Below, in pieces: positions 19,737 through 39,340 of a stretch of DNA of 63,610 nt. This stretch comes from Bacilli bacterium (GTDB taxonomy: Bacteria; Bacillota_I; Bacilli_A; RFN20; CAG-826), in NCBI GenBank assembly GCA_024409055.1, contig JAKSUL010000006.1, forward strand, positions 1 through 63,610, given 5' to 3'. Positions within the stretch are counted from its first letter, which is position 1, and each line of letters opens with the position of its first letter. The position numbers and the translations under genes are program-made. The notes under the pieces are model-generated. The model was given only the letters and a program-made list of their open reading frames with translations, did no database searches and was not told the origin of the DNA.

Positions 19737-22184
19737 ATGAACTCAAAAAAGAAGATTCTCGTTTTGCTTTCCTCCCTTCTTTTAGCCACGGCCGCAACTG
19801 CGACCGTCGCGACAACGGCGTTGCAACCAGAGGGCCGTCCCTATGGAATTCAAGCCGGTGACGAATGTGCCAGCCACACTGGCAATCATTACGCCATGAA
19901 GGACCCGACCAATACCGAACCGGGTTATAGGGAATTCTGGGCTTGCTGTGTCTGCGGACGTCAGTATTTGACCCAAAAGACTGGTGATTGGACCGAAGGA
20001 AGTGCTGCGACAATGATCGGCTCGGTGGATAGCGATCACATCGCCTACCTTCCAGTTGGCTTGAAGATTCCGTTTGGTGAAAATGACTGGGGATTAAAAC
20101 AACTTTCCAGCTCTTTCGCTAAAACCGACTACGCTGACAAAGCCATTCAATTCAAAGCGTATTTTGGCAATTCCGGCGATAGCCAAATCCAAATCTCCCT
20201 TTATAACGGAAACGATGAGCTTAAACCCGCGATCACTGATATCAGGATTTATCAGACCGGTGGCAAATATTCCGTCAAGGTAGGATCCATTGACCTTGAG
20301 GCCGCTTGCACCAAAGTCGATGAACATACAGTCCTCGTAAAACTCAATTATTCAAGGCTTTTGAACGCCGGTGCAATCGCCACCGAAAATTCCTTCAATT
20401 ACATCCGCGTTTGGCCGATGGCCGAAGTCACGACTCCTGGATGCGGTGTCTTCACTAACTCCTTCAGCGTCGTTGACCCGTATGTCGTCGAACATAAATA
20501 CAGTTTCCATACTGCCGAGTCCATTGAGAATATGGTCACCGAAGAAGGTGAAAACCTTTGGATTGGCAAAGATGGCATTGGATCCGCATCAGGCGCCATC
20601 TGCACCCTCGATCCGGCCGGAACGCACGAAGGACAGATCTACAACGGTTCTATGTGCTTCAACGATTTGAAGGGCGTTTCGAAAATCAAACTTAAAGGAA
20701 CCGGCAAAATCCTCGTCCAAACTGGCCTTGTTGCTTGGACGTGGGAAACAAGCTCCGTCTTCGATTTGAACACCGAGGAAGGAATCACCATGGACATCGA
20801 CCCAGAAAGAACAAATGCGTTCCTTCTTGCCTCTAGGGGCACTCAAGTTGTCCTTACTTCCTTAGAGATTGTTTCCAGGGTCGAAAATGGAACCGGTTCT
20901 ACTGACATGGACTTATTCCAAAATGCGACTATCGCCAATTGGGGCAATGAATCCTATGGATATTACACAGCTTCCAATACAAACGGCAGCAAGTCTGCTC
21001 TCGTAGTCGGATCGATGCTTAATTATGAATCCTGGCCAGCTGTTCCGCTTATCCTTGGTGGTGTTGATGCCACAGGATGCAAATTGGAATTCGACGCTAA
21101 AGGCACCGCCGGAAGAAAGAGAATCTCCATCACTCCGTTTGGCCCTGGTGACGTTCAGCTTGGACCAGAAATCGGCTACGATTTGACCAACTCCTGGCAG
21201 AAGATCACTTATGATAATTGGACCGTTGACGATCGAGTGGTCAACTTCATCAGAATAACTGTATTCACTACACCTGAATCTGATGTGCATGAAGCCATCA
21301 TCGACAATATGAAATTCGTTGATAAATCGATTATTAACGAAACCGGTGCCCCGGCTTGGTCTTATAGGGCCTTCGATGCCACCCACGTCCTCACTGAATC
21401 TCAATATTTCAATAAAGCGTTGGCCATTGATTTCAAACCAGAAACCACCAATGCTTCCTTCGAAATCGACTATATGTCCGACAGCAATCACTATGTCGGT
21501 CGTAAGAACTTCATTACCGTTGCTGATGGAGTCCCGACTTCCACTTTCGGAACCATCGTTGCCAATCCTACCGCAGGCGAAGGATGGTACACCCTCCTTG
21601 TCAGTGAAAAGAACATCGGCCACTTTGACCGTGTCACCAACGGAGCAACCATTGCCGGTATGTATTTGGCGACCGATAACGCGATGACGGGATCTGTTAC
21701 CTTCAACTATCACTCGTTCCGCGCTGTCGATGATATCGCTCCGACAAGACAAATTCTTACATATACACAGAATGGATTTGGAGTCGGCTTTGGCCATACC
21801 GACGTCAACCACGTCGCCAACGTCTCCCACTACAGGACTGCGGCGGGTAACACCATCATGATTTCCCTTAAAGTCGTGGGTTCAGTCGGTTCCTACTTCA
21901 CGATGAACTTCGCCCCTCAGGGTGATCCGAACATCTTCAAATACATCATCATCACCGTCACAGAAACTGGCCTTGCCTCCAACTGTGGCAAGATCGAAGC
22001 GGCGCCCGATGGATTCTATAACTTCTATCTCCCGAACACCGAATGCGATCAAGATGCCCTTACCGATGCCAACGGCGACTGCACCTGCAGCGTCTTCTGG
22101 ATGGGTGAGCCCTTCACCGGCGTCGAATATGTCCAAATCGACGCTAATGCCTGCAAGATTTATCAAGCTGGCATCGTTGCCTAA
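19737..22184 (+). CDS. Secreted paralogue of the 15929 lipoprotein, CBM-like
   Basis: 815 aa with a type I signal peptide (KKK, then a hydrophobic Leu/Ala stretch to about residue 27) but no lipobox and no visible LPXTG or other wall anchor. One H/CxxC repeat survives (H51, then EPGYREFWACCVCG, C70/C73). From about residue 285 it aligns closely with the product of 15929, including GSASGAICTLDPAGTHE, IDPERTNA versus LDPNRDNA, and APAWSYRAFDA; some DNA stretches are almost identical. It has its own operator region upstream and a terminator downstream, so it may be expressed apart from the operon. Function is unknown, probably glycan binding. Confidence 0.65.
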   Translation: MNSKKKILVLLSSLLLATAATATVATTALQPEGRPYGIQAGDECASHTGNHYAMKDPTNTEPGYREFWACCVCGRQYLTQKTGDWTEGSAATMIGSVDSDHIAYLPVGLKIPFGENDWGLKQLSSSFAKTDYADKAIQFKAYFGNSGDSQIQISLYNGNDELKPAITDIRIYQTGGKYSVKVGSIDLEAACTKVDEHTVLVKLNYSRLLNAGAIATENSFNYIRVWPMAEVTTPGCGVFTNSFSVVDPYVVEHKYSFHTAESIENMVTEEGENLWIGKDGIGSASGAICTLDPAGTHEGQIYNGSMCFNDLKGVSKIKLKGTGKILVQTGLVAWTWETSSVFDLNTEEGITMDIDPERTNAFLLASRGTQVVLTSLEIVSRVENGTGSTDMDLFQNATIANWGNESYGYYTASNTNGSKSALVVGSMLNYESWPAVPLILGGVDATGCKLEFDAKGTAGRKRISITPFGPGDVQLGPEIGYDLTNSWQKITYDNWTVDDRVVNFIRITVFTTPESDVHEAIIDNMKFVDKSIINETGAPAWSYRAFDATHVLTESQYFNKALAIDFKPETTNASFEIDYMSDSNHYVGRKNFITVADGVPTSTFGTIVANPTAGEGWYTLLVSEKNIGHFDRVTNGATIAGMYLATDNAMTGSVTFNYHSFRAVDDIAPTRQILTYTQNGFGVGFGHTDVNHVANVSHYRTAAGNTIMISLKVVGSVGSYFTMNFAPQGDPNIFKYIIITVTETGLASNCGKIEAAPDGFYNFYLPNTECDQDALTDANGDCTCSVFWMGEPFTGVEYVQIDANACKIYQAGIVA

Positions 22185-29034: not shown

Positions 29035-29060
29035 ACAAAACATTTGTGAGAGGTGGATCT

Positions 29061-30326
29061 ATGAACACAAGAAAAAAGCTCATGGCCTATGGGATTATTA
29101 CGCTTAGCTTGGTTTTGGCCAGCTGTGGCGGAAAAGGCTCCTCCCTTGATTACGAAAACGGGTTCCAAGACGGATATTCAGCCGGACATAACGACGGAAT
29201 GAACGATGGATTGGCCGAAGGGTACAACACCGGATATCAAGAGGGCTATAACAGCGGTTTTAGCAACGGAAAAGAAATCGGATACGATGACGGCTACATC
29301 GATGGTTACGAAGATGGCGCCGGAGAATCCGGACAAGGATCTTTTGAGCGTCCAGGCAAAAACATTGAACTGCATACTGATTTGCAGAAAAGCTACATTG
29401 AGGATGATCCTTCGAAAATTGGAATGTACGCCCATGGCTATAGCGGAGAAGAACTCTGCAAACCTAAAGCCGTAACGCTAGATTGGAGCGATGTTAAATT
29501 TGCCGAAACGTGCAGCACGTATACGGTCGTTTTATCAGAAACTTCCTCTTTTAGCGATAGCGTGTCCTATCAATCCACGGAAAAGAGCTTGGATGTTTAT
29601 AACCTTAAGCTTGGCACCAACTACTATTGGTATGTAAAAGCCACCGGGTCGACGATGACTTTCGCTACGCCGGTTTTTAATTTCAGCACTAAAAACACAG
29701 TTGTTAGAAACCTTTACGTCCCAAATACTTCGAATTGGAGAGACATGGGTAATTATGTTTTGAATAACGGCAAAAAGATAAAACAGGGCCTTGTATACCG
29801 CTCTGCCGCTTTTGGCTATTACGATGGGAACGTCGGAACGATAGCCCAAGCAACGAAAGATTGCATTCTAAATGAGCTAAAAATCAAAACGGAGCTTGAT
29901 TTGAATGGTTCCCCGAACGTTCCGGGTCTTAACAAGGTCAGTGCCGTTATGAAATGGGAAGGTATCAATAACCTAATCGATAACGAGGAAAACAAGAATT
30001 CCATTAAGACAGTATTCAATTCTTTGGGAGATACCAGCAATTACCCAGCCGTATTCCACTGCACAAGAGGAAGAGACAGGACTGGCGCCATCGCCTTCTT
30101 GTTGGGGGCCTACTTAGGCATGAACGCAGTTGATCTCCATAGGGATTATTTGTTCACGAATTTCTCTGCCGGCAATTCTTGCTCCATCGGGGCCATCACG
30201 GGTTATGAGAAATATTTGGCTGGCTACGAAGGAAACACCCTTCAGGAGCAGACGACTTCCTACTTAAAATCCATCGGCGTGACTGAGGCCACCCTATCCA
30301 CGATTACATCTACATTGGTTGCATAA
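29061..30326 (+). CDS. Surface lipoprotein tyrosine phosphatase with Gly/Asp repeat region
   Basis: 421 aa from the ATG at 29061 (GAGGTGG upstream); an in-frame GTG at 29046 is rejected because it removes the ribosome site. The lipobox is VLASC (C22). Residues about 30-90 are short repeats of the type GYxxGYxDG/NDGxxxG. An Ig/fibronectin-like region (about 120-215) follows, and then a phosphatase domain with NWRDMGNY, YRSA and the P-loop HCTRGRDRTG (C334, R340; CX5R complete). It belongs to the Y_phosphatase3 type. The lipoprotein signal places the catalytic domain outside the cell, which is unusual. Its substrate could be phosphoprotein or phosphorylated sugar. Confidence 0.8.
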   Translation: MNTRKKLMAYGIITLSLVLASCGGKGSSLDYENGFQDGYSAGHNDGMNDGLAEGYNTGYQEGYNSGFSNGKEIGYDDGYIDGYEDGAGESGQGSFERPGKNIELHTDLQKSYIEDDPSKIGMYAHGYSGEELCKPKAVTLDWSDVKFAETCSTYTVVLSETSSFSDSVSYQSTEKSLDVYNLKLGTNYYWYVKATGSTMTFATPVFNFSTKNTVVRNLYVPNTSNWRDMGNYVLNNGKKIKQGLVYRSAAFGYYDGNVGTIAQATKDCILNELKIKTELDLNGSPNVPGLNKVSAVMKWEGINNLIDNEENKNSIKTVFNSLGDTSNYPAVFHCTRGRDRTGAIAFLLGAYLGMNAVDLHRDYLFTNFSAGNSCSIGAITGYEKYLAGYEGNTLQEQTTSYLKSIGVTEATLSTITSTLVA

Positions 30327-30328
30327 TT

Positions 30329-31351
30329 ATGAAATTTAACAGACAAGAGACACTCGATTTGATTCTTAAGGAAGAATATGGCTTTCTTCCAAAAGAGTGC
30401 GAAAAGCCACTCGATTACTCCGTTGAAGAAGAAAAAGTAATCAACAATATTCACATCCAGAAGGTCATCATGTCCTATCAGGGATATAAGATGAGAACCT
30501 ATCTATATCTTCCTGAAGGCAAAAAGAACGTGAAGACGTTCATATTCGTCATGCATGAATACGCCGAGAATTTAGCGGACAAAGACTTGGTTGGCAAATA
30601 CCAGACTTTTTATCGTTATTGCCCGCTAGATTATGTTGTTGGAAAGGGCTATGGCGTTATGCTTGTGGCGACAAGAGAAGTTGCGCCTGACGAAAAGAAT
30701 TCGAAGAGGCCGTCCATTTTCGATGCGATGACGCTCGATAGGGGAGATAGCGATTGGGGAACCCTCCAAGCTTGGAGCTGGGCTTGCCGCAAAGCGCTCG
30801 ATTACCTCTACACTATGCCTGAGACGATCGATTTGAATAACGTCGTCGTCATTGGCCACTCACGTGGTGGCAAAACCGCCCTTCTAACCGCAGCTCAAGA
30901 CGAAAGGTTCATCATGGCCGTTTCTTCTTGTAGCGGAAATTCCGGCGCAGCTCTTGCTAGAAACAACACCGGCGAAACCATCAAAGACATCACCTTCCAT
31001 TTCCCATATTGGTTCTGCCATAACTATTACAAATATGCCGGACACGAAGAAGATCTTCCGTTCGACCAACATCAGTTGATTGGCTGCATCGCGCCTAGGT
31101 ACGCATACGTCTTAAGCGCAACCGAAGACGCTTGGGCTTGCCCGAAAAACGAGCTTGAGGCTTGTAGGAAAGCCACCGAATTCTATGAAGAATACGGCGT
31201 TAAAGGCTTGATAGCCCCCGAAGAAATAACGACCGACGTTTCTTATAATGAAGGCAACATCGGATACCATTACAAAACCGGAGTCCATTGCATTGAGCAA
31301 AGGGATTGGGACATGGTTATCAATTTCTTAGAAAAACATAGAGGGAAATAA
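30329..31351 (+). CDS. CE15/AXE1-like alpha/beta-hydrolase esterase
   Basis: A 340-aa cytoplasmic protein with VVVIGHSRGGKTALL (nucleophile S178), then SSCSGNSGAALARNNTGETI, FPYWFCHNYYKY, LPFDQHQLIGCIAPRYAYV, ATEDAWACPK and GVHCIEQRDW providing the catalytic His. These segments match CE15 glucuronoyl esterases and relatives. It lacks a signal peptide, so it acts on imported esterified sugars. It starts 2 bases after the phosphatase stop, and the next GH gene starts 1 base after its own stop. Whether it is a glucuronoyl or an acetyl esterase is uncertain. Confidence 0.78.
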   Translation: MKFNRQETLDLILKEEYGFLPKECEKPLDYSVEEEKVINNIHIQKVIMSYQGYKMRTYLYLPEGKKNVKTFIFVMHEYAENLADKDLVGKYQTFYRYCPLDYVVGKGYGVMLVATREVAPDEKNSKRPSIFDAMTLDRGDSDWGTLQAWSWACRKALDYLYTMPETIDLNNVVVIGHSRGGKTALLTAAQDERFIMAVSSCSGNSGAALARNNTGETIKDITFHFPYWFCHNYYKYAGHEEDLPFDQHQLIGCIAPRYAYVLSATEDAWACPKNELEACRKATEFYEEYGVKGLIAPEEITTDVSYNEGNIGYHYKTGVHCIEQRDWDMVINFLEKHRGK

Positions 31352-31352
31352 C

Positions 31353-32564
31353 ATGGAAGACATCAAAGTTTACGTAGACGCCATCAAAAAATACGTTGGC
31401 GAAAGCTATCGAAACAATTTCAGGGAACCCGTGGATAGGCTTCCTTACCATTTCCTTGTCCCGGGAGCCGGATATAGGCACCAACTTTGGGATTGGGACA
31501 GTTGGTTGACCGGCTACGCTTTGATGAGCGTTGACGACAAAGACATCGAAAAGTATCAAAAAGGCTGCGTTTTGGATTTCTTAAACGCCATATGCGAAGA
31601 CGGAAGGATACCGATTCTCGTCCAAGATTCTCCTTCTTGGCTTTTTGATATTGATGACAAGTATCAAAGCAATATCCATAAGCCATGCCTCGCCATACAT
31701 GCTTTAGAGATTTCTGAAAGGTATAACGACTACAATTGGATTGCCGATAAGTTCGACGATTTGCTTCGTTTCATCTCTTTCTACGAGAAAAACCAAAAAG
31801 ACGAAGAGACCGGCTTGTTCTATTGGATTGACGATTTGGGAATCGGATTCGATAACGACCCGACAGTTTTCTATAGGCCGAACAAGAGCACCGGCGCCAT
31901 ATATTTGAATTCCCTTATGTATATGGAGCTACTTTCTGTCGCAAAAATCGCTGAGAAACTCGGAAGAAAAGAAGCCGAAGAATATTTCAAGAAGAGCGAA
32001 TCCTTGAAAGAGGCTATCGAAAATGAATGTTTCGACAAGGTTGACGGCTTCTATTACTCAGCCGATTTATCGCTTAGAAAGGTCGACCCTGAGGTTTGGC
32101 TTCATAAAGGCCATCCAAGGTTCTGGCACTCGCTTCCGATAAAGATCACGACTTGGGCCGGCTTGCTTCCTTTGTGGGCAAAAATCGCCACCAAAGAAGA
32201 GGCTGATAGAGTCGTCAAAAGGTATCTGAACGAAGAAGGTCTTTATAGCGAATACGGAATTCGTAGCGTCGCCAAAAACGAGAAGATGTTCGGAATCTTT
32301 GATACCGGAAACCCGTCTTGTTGGCTCGGTCCTATTTGGATAAATGCCAATTATTTCACATATGTGGCCCTTAAAAATTACGGCTACGACGACTTGGCTA
32401 AAGACATAGCCGTCAAGACTATTAAGCTTCTTGGAAAAGACGTATTGGAAAACGGACAGTTCCACGAATATTACGATTCAGAGACCGGAAAAGGCGTCCG
32501 TGGCCCTGGATTCCAAAGCTGGAATTTCTTGGTCATCAAGCTCATTGAAGAACTTGGTCTTTGA
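31353..32564 (+). CDS. GH63/GH37-like alpha/alpha-barrel glycosidase
   Basis: A 403-aa cytoplasmic (alpha/alpha)6-barrel protein: HQLWDWDSWLTG, KPCLAIHALEI, RPNKSTGAIYLNSLMYMEL, WLGPIWINANYFTYVAL and FHEYYDSETGKGVRGPGFQ, the last resembling the catalytic-base segment of GH63/mannosylglycerate-hydrolase-like enzymes. It differs from the GH37-like protein at 1323-2555 in length and motifs. It is the last gene of the phosphatase unit. Likely reaction: hydrolysis of a terminal alpha-linked glucose or mannose from an imported oligosaccharide. Confidence 0.7.
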   Translation: MEDIKVYVDAIKKYVGESYRNNFREPVDRLPYHFLVPGAGYRHQLWDWDSWLTGYALMSVDDKDIEKYQKGCVLDFLNAICEDGRIPILVQDSPSWLFDIDDKYQSNIHKPCLAIHALEISERYNDYNWIADKFDDLLRFISFYEKNQKDEETGLFYWIDDLGIGFDNDPTVFYRPNKSTGAIYLNSLMYMELLSVAKIAEKLGRKEAEEYFKKSESLKEAIENECFDKVDGFYYSADLSLRKVDPEVWLHKGHPRFWHSLPIKITTWAGLLPLWAKIATKEEADRVVKRYLNEEGLYSEYGIRSVAKNEKMFGIFDTGNPSCWLGPIWINANYFTYVALKNYGYDDLAKDIAVKTIKLLGKDVLENGQFHEYYDSETGKGVRGPGFQSWNFLVIKLIEELGL

Positions 32565-32615: not shown

Positions 32616-35375
32616 ATGAAAAAACAAACAGCACTCATCAGCGTCGTTGGTTCTTTGTCGCTAGCTAGTCTTTTGTTCTCTTGTGGTGGAACCGCTCATG
32701 AGCACACGTATGTGGCTCACCCTGAGGTTCCTTCTAACTGCCACGATGCCGGAACGGATTTCTACTACTCTTGCGAAGGATGCGACCTTCTTTTTGATGC
32801 AGAGAAAAAACAAATCGACGCCCCCCTTCCTTTGGAACTAGATCCTAATACCCACAAAGGGGCGAAGGTTTTAAACGCCATCGCCGAGACCACAAATTAC
32901 AAAATCGGCGATAAGTTCGACTTGGAGAGCACCAAACTCTTATGGGGATGCGAATATTGTGACGGAGCCGAATTAACCGCCACCGAAAAAGCCAATGTCG
33001 AAGTCAAATACCCGACCGAGGGAGCTAATAGCTTTACGGTTGCCGATAGCAAAGAAGCTTCCGTAAACGTCACCCTTAGCTCCAACGCTTATACCGTTCA
33101 GGTTGCCGTTAGGGTCGGAAAGAAAGATAACGCTATTACGGGGTTAGCCGATATGGCGGCCCACTGCGGATATCAAATCACCGCCTTCGATGAAATGTTG
33201 GAAAACGGAACCATCAGCGCCACCAGCGGAGAGAATGTTACTTTGTATTTCTCCGATACGATCGACGGCACATACACCAAGCGTTCCGATATGCCGAATG
33301 ATACGGTCTTCAGCGTAAGAGACGGCGAAACCGAATCCGTTTATTACATCAAAGCCGAATCCATGCCGACCGAAGAATACGTTAAAGCCACGGTCGATCC
33401 GGTCAAATTAACCATCACCCATAACGAACTTCTTTGGGATACCTCTAGAAGCGACTACGACTTCGTCGGATGCATGTGCAAACCGGAGAACGTAAAGAAG
33501 TTCAATAAACTTCCGAGTAATTCCACAACCGTTTTGCTCACCGAAGAGACCGCGACTTTGGATTTAAGCGGAACCGATTACGGAACCGCCCCATACACCG
33601 ATATGACAATCGAAAAAGTCACCACCAAAACTAGCTCTGGTGATGTAATCGACTTAGGCACCTCTTTAACCGTTCCGACCGCTTCTTTCTCGGATAATAA
33701 CATCTTCGGAAAAACGAAGGTCTCAGTCACCGTTTCCCATGGCGAAATTAGCGATGAGATTCCGGCTGGAACCCACGTTATCGAAGTTCCGGTCGTCGTT
33801 GTCACGAAGACCATTTCTAACGCCGCCGAATGGAAGGCTATGTTGCCTTCCGCCACCGGAACGACAGTCGAAGGATATTATCTTTTGACTGACGATATCG
33901 TTATCCCCGCTAATAAAAATCCTGAATACATCCAGGGTTGGGATAAGGCGCTCTTCTCCGGAACCGTTGATGGAGATGGCCACAAAGTTACTCTCAATCA
34001 AGGCACGTATGGCCAGTTCTATGTTTTGAAGAATGCGACGTTAAAGAACATCACTTTCTGCAATGAGCTCTGGAATCGTACCGCTCTTAAAAACTGCCTT
34101 TTGACACAGAAGGCGAATCAGAGCACTTTCGAGAATCTCACATTCAAGGTCCTTGCCGTTAATAGCGCTACAAAAGACGTCGAGTTCACCCCGGTTACAG
34201 ATTACGGATATCTCTTCAATAATGGCGGTGTCCAAGGATGCTCCTTCGCTGATTGCGACTTCGATTTCGACGGATACGTTGTTCCTTCTTTGCTCTGCCA
34301 CTCTGGCAACAGCAGCGCGACCAACACATTTGCGAATTCCGTTTTGACCTGCATCGATGTCACCGAACTTTATTTCACCAACACTGGCGATGTCATCACG
34401 GAAGCCGAAGGCTTAACCATTAATAGAATCGCATACGAAAAGGTCGAAATGGAAAGCACGGTGATCTCCGCCGCCTCAACTGGTCCAGTTTCTATCACCC
34501 TACCTGCGAAATATGAAGGTGTTACCGTCACCTCAGTCACAATGAAGTGTGGTGGAGAGGATGTTAAAGTCGGCGATTCCTTAGCTAGCGTTACCATTCC
34601 TGACGACGTTAAGAACAATCTTTTACTCCATGGTGAAACCGAAATTGTCGCTACTGTCGAAAACTATGCAGGAGCTGGCAAATTGTTAATCCCTGTCACC
34701 ATCGTCACGGGTGTTATCTCCACTAACGCTGAGCTCTCCGCCTTGACCCACGTCGACGGAACTAAGAAGACCGTCTACGGCTATTACATGCTTGGCGCTG
34801 ACCTCGACCTCAACAGCAACTACACCGATTTCAAGTCTGGTAGCGTCATGTACAACACGTTCTCCGGCACCTTTGACGGCGCAGGCCATAAGATAACGTC
34901 CAAGTCGAGGACCTTTGGTATCTTCGGCGAATTGACCGACGCAACCATCAAGAATCTCAACGTCGACGACGCTTGGTCCTATGGCGGCATCGATCAGAGC
35001 CAAAGCGTCTTCAGCATCGACATGACGAGGACAATCCTCGAGAACGTCAACGTCAAGATGACCGCCAAAGCCGGCAGGGATACCCAGTTTGCTTCCCTCG
35101 TCTCTTCCTTCGACCTCGCCAAGCAAGCCTATGGCTGGATCAATTCCAGGGTCTGCCATACCTGCACGTTCAAGAACTGCAACTTCGACGGCGGGACCAC
35201 GCTGAAGGTCATCACCTTGCTCGGAACCCACTCTTCTTGCGTCAACGCGACCTTCACTGACTCCACCTTCAATTGCGGCGAATACTACTGCGTCTACCAG
35301 TCCAGTTACACCAAGACCGTCAGCACGACCTTCCCGGGACTAACCATCACCGGAACCTGCGTCTACGCCGCTTAA
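32616..35375 (+). CDS. Large surface lipoprotein with CxxC, Ig-like and beta-helix modules
   Basis: 919 aa with lipobox LLFSC (C23). One H/CxxC repeat lies at residues 30-56 (C42, C53, C56), with a further CEYC pair. Two copies follow of a unit made of an Ig-like strand region and a parallel beta-helix region: one with GYYLLTDDIVI and FSGTVDGDGHKV, and one with GYYMLGADLDL and FSGTFDGAGHKI. The unit ends in short ATLKNITF/ATIKNLNV coils. The same unit occurs in the proteins at 35630 and 50360. No catalytic residues are visible; adhesion or polysaccharide binding is likely. The last ~210 codons are richer in G+C than the rest. A terminator follows directly. Confidence 0.65.
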   Translation: MKKQTALISVVGSLSLASLLFSCGGTAHEHTYVAHPEVPSNCHDAGTDFYYSCEGCDLLFDAEKKQIDAPLPLELDPNTHKGAKVLNAIAETTNYKIGDKFDLESTKLLWGCEYCDGAELTATEKANVEVKYPTEGANSFTVADSKEASVNVTLSSNAYTVQVAVRVGKKDNAITGLADMAAHCGYQITAFDEMLENGTISATSGENVTLYFSDTIDGTYTKRSDMPNDTVFSVRDGETESVYYIKAESMPTEEYVKATVDPVKLTITHNELLWDTSRSDYDFVGCMCKPENVKKFNKLPSNSTTVLLTEETATLDLSGTDYGTAPYTDMTIEKVTTKTSSGDVIDLGTSLTVPTASFSDNNIFGKTKVSVTVSHGEISDEIPAGTHVIEVPVVVVTKTISNAAEWKAMLPSATGTTVEGYYLLTDDIVIPANKNPEYIQGWDKALFSGTVDGDGHKVTLNQGTYGQFYVLKNATLKNITFCNELWNRTALKNCLLTQKANQSTFENLTFKVLAVNSATKDVEFTPVTDYGYLFNNGGVQGCSFADCDFDFDGYVVPSLLCHSGNSSATNTFANSVLTCIDVTELYFTNTGDVITEAEGLTINRIAYEKVEMESTVISAASTGPVSITLPAKYEGVTVTSVTMKCGGEDVKVGDSLASVTIPDDVKNNLLLHGETEIVATVENYAGAGKLLIPVTIVTGVISTNAELSALTHVDGTKKTVYGYYMLGADLDLNSNYTDFKSGSVMYNTFSGTFDGAGHKITSKSRTFGIFGELTDATIKNLNVDDAWSYGGIDQSQSVFSIDMTRTILENVNVKMTAKAGRDTQFASLVSSFDLAKQAYGWINSRVCHTCTFKNCNFDGGTTLKVITLLGTHSSCVNATFTDSTFNCGEYYCVYQSSYTKTVSTTFPGLTITGTCVYAA

Positions 35376-35423: not shown

Positions 35424-35592
35424 CGTTCTGCTCGCAAAAAAGCGTCTCAAAAATATTTCAAAATGAATTCATATTATTAACCAAAAACGCGTGATTTTTG
35501 CAAATAAAAGCACTTTCATGGGGTATTTCACCATTTTTCTTTTCTTTTCTACTATTTCATTTCGTCGCTTTCTTCGTGCGCACATTACGCTA

Positions 35593-35598
35593 TATAAT
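35593..35598 (+). promoter_or_regulatory. Candidate -10 element
   Basis: TATAAT at 35593-35598 lies 31 bases before the ATG at 35630, with AAAAGGAG as the ribosome site. The -35 region (about 35570) is T-rich but not close to TTGACA. Confidence 0.45.
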
Positions 35599-35629
35599 GT
35601 CAAAAACTACACACAAAAAAGGAGATTGT

Positions 35630-37681
35630 ATGAACAAGAAAACTCGTGTTGTGTTTGCTTTGTCTTGCTTTTCCATCCTAGCCGTCGCCTCTGTTGCTGC
35701 GGTTGGTGTTGGCGCCGCTGCCGGTGGACGTTTGTTCGCCAATGACGGAGCTACTTGGAAACACTACAAACAAGCTCTTCCTGGAACAGTAAACGGCTCT
35801 GAAAACGGAGTCAGGGAATACTGGGTCAGCTGTGGTGGAGAAGGCTACCAATTCACCGCTCCTGCAGGTGCTACCATTCAAGAAGCTACTACTTATGACT
35901 TTTCCGGATTCGAGGCCAATGATCCTCGTTATATCATCCCGTTAAAAGGCGAATATCGCTCAGCCTTCTTGGTTGGCGGAAATCGTTACCACAGCGAAAC
36001 TCCGGAACTCGCCGGCGCTGGCTGGTGGTACTCTGGAACTCTTCCGGAACTCGGAAAATCCAAGACGATGATTTGGAAGAATGTCAACGACAGTGACACG
36101 AATCCTTATTACTACGTCGACACAATGGTTGTCACCAAAGTCATCAACAATTGGACCGAATTTAAAGCGACTTTCCAACACTCCGGTGCTTATACCGCCG
36201 ATGAAAAAGTCGAAGGTTATTATGTTTTGGGCAGTGACATTACCATCAATCAAAACATCAACAACGAAAACTACACATCCGCTCTCTATAATGCCGGCTT
36301 TGTCGGCGAATTCGATGGCCGTGGACATTCTATGGACGCGACCAGCGTTCCTGGTGCTTATAACGGCGGTTTATTCGGGCTCGTCAACGGTGCCACGATC
36401 AAGAACGTTAGCATCACATCTAGCTGTCCGAGTTATGCCGCAGGATTAGTAACCGGTCAGGCTAATGACTCTATCTTCAAAAACATCAAGGTCACTATTC
36501 CGACCGTCGGCACAGATAACGCTTCATACGGACGTTTTGTCGCTAGGTTCTCTGCCAACAACTTGTTCGAGGACATCGACATTTCGTTCGGAGCCGGTCA
36601 GACCGTTTCCAACATTTTCGGTGGTAACACCAACGCCGCAAATGACACCTTTATCAACGTCACCGTCCAAAACGACACCAAACCAACTATGTGGTATACC
36701 GTTGATGGTGGTGGAACAAAGATCACCAACACTGCCGGCCTCGTTTACATCCCGAATGGATACACCATCGCTTCCGGCCGCAGGGACATCGTTGCAAAGA
36801 CTGCCGCTCAGGCTATTACCATGCCGGCCGAAGTTACCGGCGATATCACTGCCATGAAATTGGTCGATAGGGCTGGAACCGAGTATGATCTCGGAGCCGA
36901 TCCAACCGCCATTGCCTTACCTGAGGCTTTTGTAACCAACGCTGAACAGCACGGCGAAAACGTCTTGTTGGTCACAACCTCCACTGGCAATTACGCCGTT
37001 AAGGTCACTGTTGTTACCAGCTACATTTCTACCGCTGCCGATATGGCTCTTATCAGGGGTTGCAACCTCGGTAAAAAGGTTTATGGATATTTTGCGATGA
37101 CTAACGATGTCGTCGTTGACTACAGTGCCACCGGAATCGGACAAACCACCAACGTCTCCGGTTGGTCAACAACCGCTAATGGCTTCTACGGTGTCTTCGA
37201 TGGACGTGGCCACGTCATCAAAGGCAATGCCTACACAGCTAGCAAAGGCATCTTCGGAACCATCCAAGGGGCTGCCGTTATCATGAATATGAACATCTAT
37301 AACGACAACTACACTGGCTACGATACTCCTCTTATCGGCGTGGGTATCATGGGAGTTGGCGGAGCTACTGGCTACATTAGGTTTGCCAACGTTGATATCA
37401 ATGTCAAAGCCGTCGGTAGCAACACCGCAAGAACTGGAATCTTGTCCGCCAGCGGTCTTAACACCGTCGCCTTCCAGAACTACACCGTCACCATCAGGGG
37501 TGAATATCCGGAAGGAGCCACCGTCTCCTTGATGCCGGCTAACTACTTGACCGAAGCCACCAGGTTCAACCACTTTGTTTGGAACACCCCGCACGCTACT
37601 ACCCTTTCCGTTATTGCCGGAAAGACCAGTGGAACCGTTAATCCTGGAATGACGATCAATTACACCGACGTCGCTGCTTAA
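35630..37681 (+). CDS. Secreted Ig/beta-helix protein
   Basis: 683 aa from the ATG at 35630, which has a strong ribosome site; an in-frame start at 35498 lies upstream of the predicted promoter and is rejected. The type I signal peptide spans about residues 1-30 (KKTR, hydrophobic stretch, then AAAGG) with no lipobox. The first mature segment is a degenerate H/CxxC repeat (H45, ENGVREYWVSCGG, C68 without the second Cys). Two Ig plus beta-helix units follow (GYYVLGSDITI with FVGEFDGRGHSM, and GYFAMTNDVVV with GVFDGRGHVI). It is a paralogue in architecture of 32616. It is secreted or loosely surface-bound; binding function is inferred. Confidence 0.65.
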   Translation: MNKKTRVVFALSCFSILAVASVAAVGVGAAAGGRLFANDGATWKHYKQALPGTVNGSENGVREYWVSCGGEGYQFTAPAGATIQEATTYDFSGFEANDPRYIIPLKGEYRSAFLVGGNRYHSETPELAGAGWWYSGTLPELGKSKTMIWKNVNDSDTNPYYYVDTMVVTKVINNWTEFKATFQHSGAYTADEKVEGYYVLGSDITINQNINNENYTSALYNAGFVGEFDGRGHSMDATSVPGAYNGGLFGLVNGATIKNVSITSSCPSYAAGLVTGQANDSIFKNIKVTIPTVGTDNASYGRFVARFSANNLFEDIDISFGAGQTVSNIFGGNTNAANDTFINVTVQNDTKPTMWYTVDGGGTKITNTAGLVYIPNGYTIASGRRDIVAKTAAQAITMPAEVTGDITAMKLVDRAGTEYDLGADPTAIALPEAFVTNAEQHGENVLLVTTSTGNYAVKVTVVTSYISTAADMALIRGCNLGKKVYGYFAMTNDVVVDYSATGIGQTTNVSGWSTTANGFYGVFDGRGHVIKGNAYTASKGIFGTIQGAAVIMNMNIYNDNYTGYDTPLIGVGIMGVGGATGYIRFANVDINVKAVGSNTARTGILSASGLNTVAFQNYTVTIRGEYPEGATVSLMPANYLTEATRFNHFVWNTPHATTLSVIAGKTSGTVNPGMTINYTDVAA

Positions 37682-37849: not shown

Positions 37850-39340
37850 ATGAAATTAAACAAAGAATCCTATTTGAACAAATTAAAAGGATGCTTCATC
37901 GGTAAAAATATCGGTGGAACAATCGGTGGACCTTACGAAGGAAGGCGCGAGATGCTCGACGTCAAAGGTTTCATCACTTCTAAAGGAGAACCACTCCCAA
38001 ACGATGACTTAGATCTCCAGTTGGTGTGGCTTCAGGCCGTCGAAGACGAAGGCCCGCAACATATCGATAGCGAAACCCTCGGACAATACTGGCAAAGCTT
38101 CATTACTCCATACTGGAACGAATATGGAATTTGCAAGACCAACATGGGTAGAGGCATCATGCCAAGCGTTGCCGGTGATATGGAAAACAATGTTTGGAAG
38201 CATTCAAATGGTGCTTGGATAAGAACCGAAATCTGGGCTTCCTTATGCCCTGGTGCGATTGATACAGCGGTTAAGTACGCCATCGAAGATGCCATAGTTG
38301 ATCATGGGGTTGGTGAAGGAACGGCCGCTGCCGCCTTTGTTGCCGCTTTAGAAAGTGCCGCGTACTTTGAAAGTGACATCGAAAAGTTGATCGATATCGG
38401 TTTAGCGAAAATCGATCCTGACTCCAGACTTCACTCGACGATTGCTTTGGTTAGAAAAGAGTTCTACGCCGGCAAAGATTATGCGACCGTCAGAAACGAA
38501 GTAGTGGAACTTAATAAAGATATTGGCGATGGCTGGTTCCAAGCTCCCAATAACATTGCTTTTGTTGTCATTGGACTTTTATATGGAAAGGGCGATTTCA
38601 AGAAATCAATGATCACCGCAGTTAATTGTGGCGACGATACCGACTGCACAGCCGCGACCGTTGGTTCCATTTTGGGAATTATCCTCGGTGCCGATAAGAT
38701 TCCGGAAGACTGGAAGGAATATATCGGAGATAGGATCATCACCTGCTCCATCAATAGGGGAATTTCATTTAGATTTGCCAACACGATCACTGATCTTGTT
38801 AATAGGATCAGCGCCCAAGCCCCGTATTGCTTATACGCCAACAAAGATAAAGTCGAAATCGTCGATGGTGAAACCGAGATAAGCGAAGAAGAAAGAACGT
38901 CTTTCTTAAAAGAATTCGCAAAAGACGATGAAAGGGATAGCATCCGTGCCCTCCGTTATTCTCTCAAAGCCAATACTTTCAAAACTAGAACCGGACCTTT
39001 GACCACAATCGTCACTTATAAAGATGGCGTGTATTGCAAAGCTGGCGACACCAAGACTTTGGAAGTCATGTTCACTAATAACATCAAGGCTTATGGCAAT
39101 GAAAACCATGAAGCTAAGGTTGAGGTCATTTTGCCGAAAGGAATGACTTGCAGGGAAGATAAAAAAGAAGTCTTCTTGCCTTGCTGGACCCCAATGTCCG
39201 TCATGGCTTATTCGGAGTGTATTTCTTTCGATATCGAAATCAATGAACCGACCGCTACCGCCGAAACCGTTTTACTAAAGATCACCGTTAAGCCTAGGGG
39301 CAAACAATACTTCATCCCGGTCAAGTTTTTGAGAAAGTAA
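37850..39340 (+). CDS. ADP-ribosylglycohydrolase-family protein
   Basis: 496 aa. The first ~310 residues are an ADP-ribosylglycohydrolase fold: GCFIGKNIGGTIGGPYEG, the metal motif PNDDLD (D52, D53) and the second metal motif NCGDDTDCTAA (D262, D263, D265). A further ~170 beta-rich residues form a C-terminal domain not found in minimal DraG/ARH enzymes. Known members remove ADP-ribose from proteins, but many copies lie in sugar operons with unknown, possibly glycosidase, activity. Here it precedes a GH2 gene by 4 bases, which supports a catabolic rather than regulatory job (inference). GGAGG lies upstream of the ATG. Confidence 0.8.
   Translation: MKLNKESYLNKLKGCFIGKNIGGTIGGPYEGRREMLDVKGFITSKGEPLPNDDLDLQLVWLQAVEDEGPQHIDSETLGQYWQSFITPYWNEYGICKTNMGRGIMPSVAGDMENNVWKHSNGAWIRTEIWASLCPGAIDTAVKYAIEDAIVDHGVGEGTAAAAFVAALESAAYFESDIEKLIDIGLAKIDPDSRLHSTIALVRKEFYAGKDYATVRNEVVELNKDIGDGWFQAPNNIAFVVIGLLYGKGDFKKSMITAVNCGDDTDCTAATVGSILGIILGADKIPEDWKEYIGDRIITCSINRGISFRFANTITDLVNRISAQAPYCLYANKDKVEIVDGETEISEEERTSFLKEFAKDDERDSIRALRYSLKANTFKTRTGPLTTIVTYKDGVYCKAGDTKTLEVMFTNNIKAYGNENHEAKVEVILPKGMTCREDKKEVFLPCWTPMSVMAYSECISFDIEINEPTATAETVLLKITVKPRGKQYFIPVKFLRK

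Follow-up and report, generated by a model that had tools for sequence, protein, structure and literature searches.

The described proteins closest in fold to the phosphatase analyzed here are those of the PtpB type (Pfam family PF13350), including MptpB of M. tuberculosis, LipA of Listeria, which is a lipoprotein, and the C. difficile PTP (8dhi). Both MptpB and LipA are described as secreted enzymes that act on phosphotyrosine and phosphoinositides (PMC8027504). Two further systems resemble the gene neighborhoods in which relatives of this phosphatase are found. In S. aureus, staphylococcal nuclease is reported to free 3′-phosphonucleotides and dinucleotides, and the surface 5′-3′-nucleotidase AdsA to make nucleosides (PMC8960049). 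In Mycoplasma, a transcript (MAG_5030-5070) that carries the genes for SNase, for a binding lipoprotein of the sugar type and for ABC components is proposed to feed an importer with nucleotide precursors (PMC3585158).

The window, i.e., the whole stretch of 63,610 nucleotides from a Bacilli bacterium, encodes a lipoprotein phosphatase that shares with the PtpB-type proteins the HC-X5-R loop and, in the predicted model, the common fold (Z about 20 to MptpB and 8dhj), but differs from them in the addition of an fn3-like domain and a stalk, in the replacement of the lysine of HCXXGKDR by arginine and in the nutrient-cluster context. The inositol pyrophosphate phosphatases PFA-DSP1 and SIW14 match the model with Z about 14.5; At1g05000 has basic residues at the same loop positions but histidine in place of the loop aspartate, and the eukaryotic entries seen are about 150-170 residues long. 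The operons of the closest relatives can be likened to the S. aureus pair and, in grouping SNase with a binding lipoprotein of the sugar type and with ABC genes, to the Mycoplasma operon; they add a PTP-fold lipoprotein and often a 5′-nucleotidase-type gene, whereas the genome of the window lacks SNase. AdsA is a metallophosphoesterase without the PTP fold and in this respect differs from the window protein, which is a known kind of enzyme in a new context.

Domain architecture and active site of the phosphatase

The open reading frame starts with an ATG at 29061, directly preceded by the ribosome-binding-like AGAGGTGG, and its stop codon ends at 30326; an alternative, longer frame for the same gene starts with GTG at 29046. 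This is a real gene, because its product matches PF13350 (Y_phosphatase3) well over the curated cut-off (78 bits against 22.2) and has matches (E<=1e-5) in 86 of 196 genomes sampled from its family, counting its own, with up to 11 matches per genome. Promoter-like and terminator-like sites did not exceed the level of shuffled sequence. The features of the gene are the following.

29061..30326, + strand: lipoprotein phosphatase gene, 421 aa (PF13350, E=1.4e-21)
29061..29126, + strand: signal peptide and lipobox LASC with predicted lipid-modified Cys22 (residues 1-22)
29151..29336, + strand: GX3-repeat stalk (residues about 31-92; Yae1_N match at 48-82)
29466..29699, + strand: fn3-like beta domain (residues about 136-213)
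29715..30323, + strand: PtpB-type phosphatase domain (residues 219-421)
29898..29906, + strand: D280-L281-N282, DLR in most relatives
30057..30086, + strand: P-loop H333-C334-T-R336-G-R338-D339-R340-T-G342, from sequence and alignment

An earlier note on this DNA had described an extracellular lipoprotein with a lipobox at C22, a repeat stalk, an Ig-like domain and a phosphatase domain with an intact HCTRGRDRTG loop, and this layout is borne out in all but one detail. The lipobox L19-A20-S21-C22 follows the signal peptide and fits the bacterial lipoprotein pattern [LVI][ASTVI][GAS]C, Cys22 is nearly invariant in a 24-row family alignment (A1), and Lgt is encoded in the same genome (two matches), so that the extracellular location is sound as a prediction. 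The stalk is a glycine repeat with a four-residue period, labeled Yae1_N by Pfam at 27.6 bits against a cut-off of 27.5. A pattern search of 161 homologous ORFs found such GX3 stalks only in the window gene and in one gene of another genome (L030/L130, G178). The possibility that the stalk is a genome-wide module was rejected, as no second copy was found in the same genome. The Ig-like domain is present but is better called fn3-like: the A1 family profile matches solved fn3 domains (best 1.4e-9), as does, more weakly, the structural model (Foldseek E about 0.004). The Pfam fn3 match of the window protein itself stays below the cut-off (16.1 against 25), and fn3 chains are listed by Foldseek but absent from the 50 VIA-align rows.

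An AlphaFold2 model built from 24 family sequences has a mean pLDDT of 81; values exceed 90 over most of the fn3-like and catalytic domains and fall below 50 at residues 19-98. In this model, the catalytic domain has the fold of C. difficile PTP (8dhj: Z 20.5, rmsd 2.3, 185 residues aligned) and M. tuberculosis PtpB (1ywf: Z 20.2, rmsd 2.1, 183 aligned), followed by PFA-DSP1 (Z 14.6) and SIW14 (Z 14.3) as the next group. The HC-X5-R-[ST] loop of the PTP superfamily is present as H333-C334-TRGRD-R340-T341 and is intact in all 121 aligned sequences that cover it, the window protein included; H333, C334, G337 and R340 are identical in all of these, and N225, R227, D228 and R247 are constant across 122 aligned sequences. 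The ALP signature, given as HCXXGKDR[TA]G (PMC8027504), is not matched by HCTRGRDRTG, in which K is replaced by R, and therefore the window protein is not filed as an ALP; across the 122 sequences, this column contains threonine in 61, alanine in 38 and lysine in 11. The general acid of MptpB is reported to be Asp82 (PMC7822160); the region of A1 taken to match it contains no clearly conserved acid, and D339 of the P-loop is a candidate for this role.

The window protein departs from most relatives at two positions, with asparagine in place of Arg282 (present in 100 of the 122 sequences) and without a glutamate that is nearly invariant in A1. Among the 22 sequences without R282, the window protein included, all have intact loops and 21 have no acidic residue at the second site either; without the window protein, these counts are 21 and 20. 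In the 100 sequences that retain R282, the second-site column, where the alignment is loose, shows an acid in 45, a gap in 45 and another residue in 10. That R282 and the nearby acid form a structural pair lost together is only suggestive, because 55 of the 100 arginine-bearing sequences have no acid in this column, 45 of them being gaps. Catalytic decay through the loss of R282 was judged unlikely given these relatives with intact loops, and we do not read N282 as proof of inactivity.

Closest relatives and the nuclease/ABC transporter operon

The genomic context of the family was analyzed in 39 stretches around phosphatase genes (603 kb), mostly from the best matches of the search of 196 genomes, and in 20 control stretches from the same genomes (241 kb; five of them short, 2.0-7.8 kb). 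From the 161 homologous ORFs of the tree set, 39 were dropped, 30 as duplicates and 9 for an aligned stretch of less than 200 aa; one of these nine sits in a control stretch (L144), which means that phosphatase-domain genes also occur among the controls. A genuine SNase domain is encoded in 13 of the 39 phosphatase loci and in none of the 20 controls (Fisher p=0.0025), and all 13 belong to a single clade of the phosphatase tree (13/17 clade loci vs 0/22 others; Fisher p=3e-7).

These closest relatives are the last lipoproteins of operons that also encode an ABC transporter of the sugar type, a solute-binding lipoprotein and an SNase lipoprotein, often near a 5′-nucleotidase-type gene. The typical order is: 5′-nucleotidase-type gene (PF00149+PF02872), two membrane proteins, MalK-like ATPase, two permeases, SBP_bac_8 lipoprotein, SNase lipoprotein, small protein, Big_2 lipoprotein, phosphatase, DJ-1/PfpI and DUF1846. 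This order was read by Pfam scan in L188 (G164) and by similarity in L189-L192, and all five loci show the part from the ATPase to the phosphatase. In G046 (L166/L190, 5499-7656), the SNase gene is split over two overlapping frames. SNase is absent from four clade loci. One of them, L168, is a contig of 6.7 kb that appears to be truncated within this gene order. The stretches taken of the other three (L164, L170 and L173) contain ABC genes and other membrane proteins, with an RDD domain detected by Pfam in L164, and no SNase.

Five loci from the same genus (L182-L186) have the nuclease/ABC operon and no phosphatase in the stretches taken, and therefore the phosphatase is not essential to the operon. 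Two more same-genus SNase/ABC operons without the phosphatase (L194, L195) have a 5′-nucleotidase-type gene downstream, on the opposite strand. This gene is present in 7 of 8 loci refetched for having a PF02872 hit on the same contig, including 5 of the 6 with the phosphatase; in the exception, L193, the hit lies just beyond the stretch. At the genome level, PF02872 matches were found in 9 of the 13 genomes whose phosphatase gene lies in the operon or next to it, a count that misses at least G051, whose L114 protein matches weakly by hmmscan, in all 12 same-genus SNase genomes and in the genome of the window. Whether the PF02872 protein stands in for the phosphatase was also considered; the numbers (9/13 against 12/12) are too few to decide.

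In the FastTree phylogeny, the window protein falls within a 20-member clade that holds all 13 SNase loci (support 0.96) and, in the IQ-TREE phylogeny, within a 19-member clade (SH-aLRT 83.2), on a long branch (0.60). When it was regrafted on all 240 branches, the seven best positions were in the clade or at its stem and the best outside position was 13.1 log units worse, with 14 of the 205 outside positions not rejected by the AU test. A constrained-tree AU test was discarded, the searches being poorly optimized (one tree that agreed with the best one came out 99 log units worse). Position 336 of the P-loop is arginine or glutamine in 16 of 18 clade members and in none of 102 others (one loop-less sequence left out), a count not independent of the tree because the column is also part of the tree data; the window protein has R336 and, among the 121 loops tabulated, is the only one to combine it with R338. 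The trees thus favor the placement of the window protein with the nuclease-operon clade over most, though not all, alternatives, and the loop marker agrees.

The genome of the window (1.78 Mb in 87 contigs, 97% complete) gave no SNase match, although the SNase lipoprotein has matches in 24 of the 31 genomes of its genus. The 20 kb taken around its own 5′-nucleotidase-type gene contain no nuclease/ABC operon. The window gene accordingly lies outside an operon of this kind and would have been either acquired or retained after the operon went. Three further matches (E<=1) in the same genome are a lipoprotein following a gene that looks Gfo/Idh-like by eye, a protein that lacks a signal peptide and a short protein in which the fn3 part is missing.

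In a wider set of genome contigs, a single-protein search found no relative and an alignment-based search found 451. To judge by their record titles, the best 80 of these belong to MAGs from gut and rumen and represent several phyla (Bacilli, Clostridia, Lentisphaerae, Kiritimatiellae, Bacteroidales and others). Among the 80 named relative loci, one contains SNase (L034, which from its length and range is the contig of L115), and plasmid records yielded only three, distant matches. The literature search revealed, among the matches listed, no paper on such a phosphatase lipoprotein beside a nuclease.

A subclass of long fn3-phosphatases (open frames of about 530-1030 aa, often as two tandem genes; L029, L031, L033, L054, L065, L066, L129, L159, L160, L162, L174-L177) has HC[RK]IGTDRTG loops, lacks the DLR arginine and looks like a lineage expansion. 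In two genomes (L163, 11609-13500; L171, 5694-7594), the phosphatase adjoins an Exo_endo_phos (DNase I-like) lipoprotein, detected by Pfam, and a protein of the sialate-acetylesterase type, recognized by Pfam (SASA) in L163 and by eye in L171.

Glycan cluster around the window gene

The window gene opens a tight set of genes, as follows.

30329..31351, + strand: CE15-like (glucuronoyl-esterase-like) hydrolase, 2 bases downstream of the phosphatase (PF22244, E=8.5e-27)
31353..32564, + strand: GH63/MGH1-like glycosidase, 1 base further (PF22422, E=9.7e-40)
32616..35375, + strand: large predicted lipoprotein (ORF; no Pfam match over cut-off; homologue in L180)

The co-location with an esterase and a glycosidase that the earlier note had reported is thus correct, and the window contains further genes for GH125, GH63/trehalase-like, GH123, GH109 (two), GH36, GH2, GH106-like and ADP-ribosylglycohydrolase-type proteins and for sugar-type ABC components. 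Three very large predicted secreted proteins (19737-22184, 32616-35375 and 35498-37681) have no Pfam match over the cut-off; for two of these, homologues are present in the G164 cluster described next.

At E<=1e-30, the CE15-like gene is found in two of the 196 family genomes, its own and G164, which belongs to another genus; the two CE15-like sequences share 59% identity. In the 36 kb taken of the G164 contig C31, many genes of the window cluster recur, about nine in the same order; the cluster at 22261-53964, to which the ADP-ribosylglycohydrolase-type gene at 37850-39340 belongs, is found there in part (L180, L181). No phosphatase was found in this stretch or elsewhere on the contig, and no gene of the stretch has the GH63-like protein as its best match. 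The three phosphatase matches of G164 are on C9, C12 and C14, with the C9 copy in a nuclease operon. Thus, in this one comparison, with a genome that is 72% complete, the phosphatase is not kept where the glycan cluster recurs.

Neighbors of the phosphatase in loci without SNase were scanned with Pfam for 75 of 130 listed proteins, 67 from loci outside the clade and 8 from L164, L170 and L173. No glycosidase was recurrent and no Pfam family occurred in more than three of the 75 proteins at 1e-5; GH3, SASA esterase and Exo_endo_phos proteins were each present twice. The other GX3-stalked relative (8684-10939 in L030/L130) is likewise part of a glycan cluster and has a glucuronoyl-esterase-like gene nearby.

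Proposed function and alternatives

We propose that the window protein is an extracellular phosphomonoesterase that scavenges phosphorylated nutrients, related to the phosphatases of a nucleic-acid-scavenging operon and now located in a glycan cluster, and put the probability of this reading at about one half. Phosphate removal from small extracellular molecules before uptake seems most likely because the operons of the clade fit the plan of SNase plus nucleotidase and of the mycoplasma importer, to which they add a PTP-fold lipoprotein. The phosphatase would be lipid-anchored on the outer face of the cell membrane and act through a cysteine-based mechanism, with Cys334 as the nucleophile, Arg340 binding phosphate and Asp339 of the loop as a possible acid. 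In the operons of the clade, SNase would digest extracellular DNA or RNA to 3′-phosphorylated pieces, the phosphatases would strip the phosphate from these products and the ABC system would import the dephosphorylated product. The first candidate substrates would be nucleotides for the clade and nucleotides or phosphosugars for the window copy; small phosphorylated molecules are probably the target, rather than host proteins. Several points count against this reading: a 5′-nucleotidase-type gene is often already present, so that a second phosphatase could serve something else; the window gene lies outside the nuclease operon, in a genome with no SNase match, has a long branch and is not barred from the 14 outside positions noted above; five same-genus SNase loci show no phosphatase, and three clade loci have the ABC genes but no SNase, in the stretches taken; and we know of no PTP folds that serve as secreted nucleotidases.

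The immediate neighborhood would instead suggest the dephosphorylation of phosphorylated glycans, e.g., of mannose-6-phosphate groups, before uptake. The tight packing with the CE15-like esterase and the GH63-like glycosidase, the GH125, GH109, GH36 and other genes of the window, the stalked relative in a glycan cluster (L130 of G178, where a GCE_fung-type esterase is encoded nearby on the opposite strand) and a paralogue in the same genome (L003) that adjoins a gene GH130-like by eye are all compatible with such a role. Nevertheless, the only other genome with the CE15-like gene has the cluster genes and no phosphatase on that contig, its stretch has no gene best matched by the GH63-like protein, and glycosidase families do not recur beside relatives in the loci without SNase, which makes this alternative rather doubtful and the glycan neighbors, to which the earlier note had pointed, a poor clue to the substrate when the closest relatives sit in a nuclease/ABC operon. 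The other target named there, host phosphoproteins, has nothing in its favor beyond the similarity to secreted PtpB and LipA, i.e., the same predicted fold, a similar P-loop and the precedent of their secretion and of their activity on phosphotyrosine and phosphoinositides (PMC8027504). Given the arginine in place of the ALP lysine, which is mostly threonine or alanine in the relatives, the predicted membrane anchor and the nutrient-uptake operons of the clade, action on host phosphotyrosine proteins or phosphoinositides is unlikely. Neither the glycan nor the host-protein reading is the best supported.

Two further possibilities concern the active site itself. The loop C-T-R-G-R-D-R resembles C-K-R-G-K-H-R of plant PFA-DSP and aligns with that of At1g05000, and PFA-DSP1 and SIW14 are the next best fold group of the model, as might be expected of a phosphatase of polyanions such as inositol phosphates; the pair of R336 and R338 is unique to the window protein among the loops tabulated, though, and we regard such a specificity as very unlikely for it. 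A degenerate, binding-only protein would account for the missing Arg282 and glutamate and for the long branch, but every P-loop residue is kept, and the loops are also intact in the 21 other relatives without R282, 20 of which lack the second-site acid too, so that this option appears improbable.

For the scavenging reading, a more specific version can be offered tentatively: in gut Bacilli, the PtpB-fold fn3 lipoprotein might be a dedicated surface 3′-nucleotidase or oligonucleotide 3′-phosphatase that works with the SNase lipoprotein and the ABC importer. A tyrosine phosphatase fold of the "virulence type" would then serve a nutrient enzyme, one that has expanded to many copies in each small genome and has been taken up again in glycan clusters such as that of the window. 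The operon points to a directly testable substrate, the products of SNase digestion, and the clade is marked by a single P-loop residue, which makes the scavenging idea amenable to enzyme assay. Secreted bacterial enzymes of the PTP fold are often taken as tools against host signaling; if this large family of gut lipoproteins serves to scavenge phosphorylated nutrients, the label "tyrosine phosphatase" would mislead in many gut metagenome annotations.
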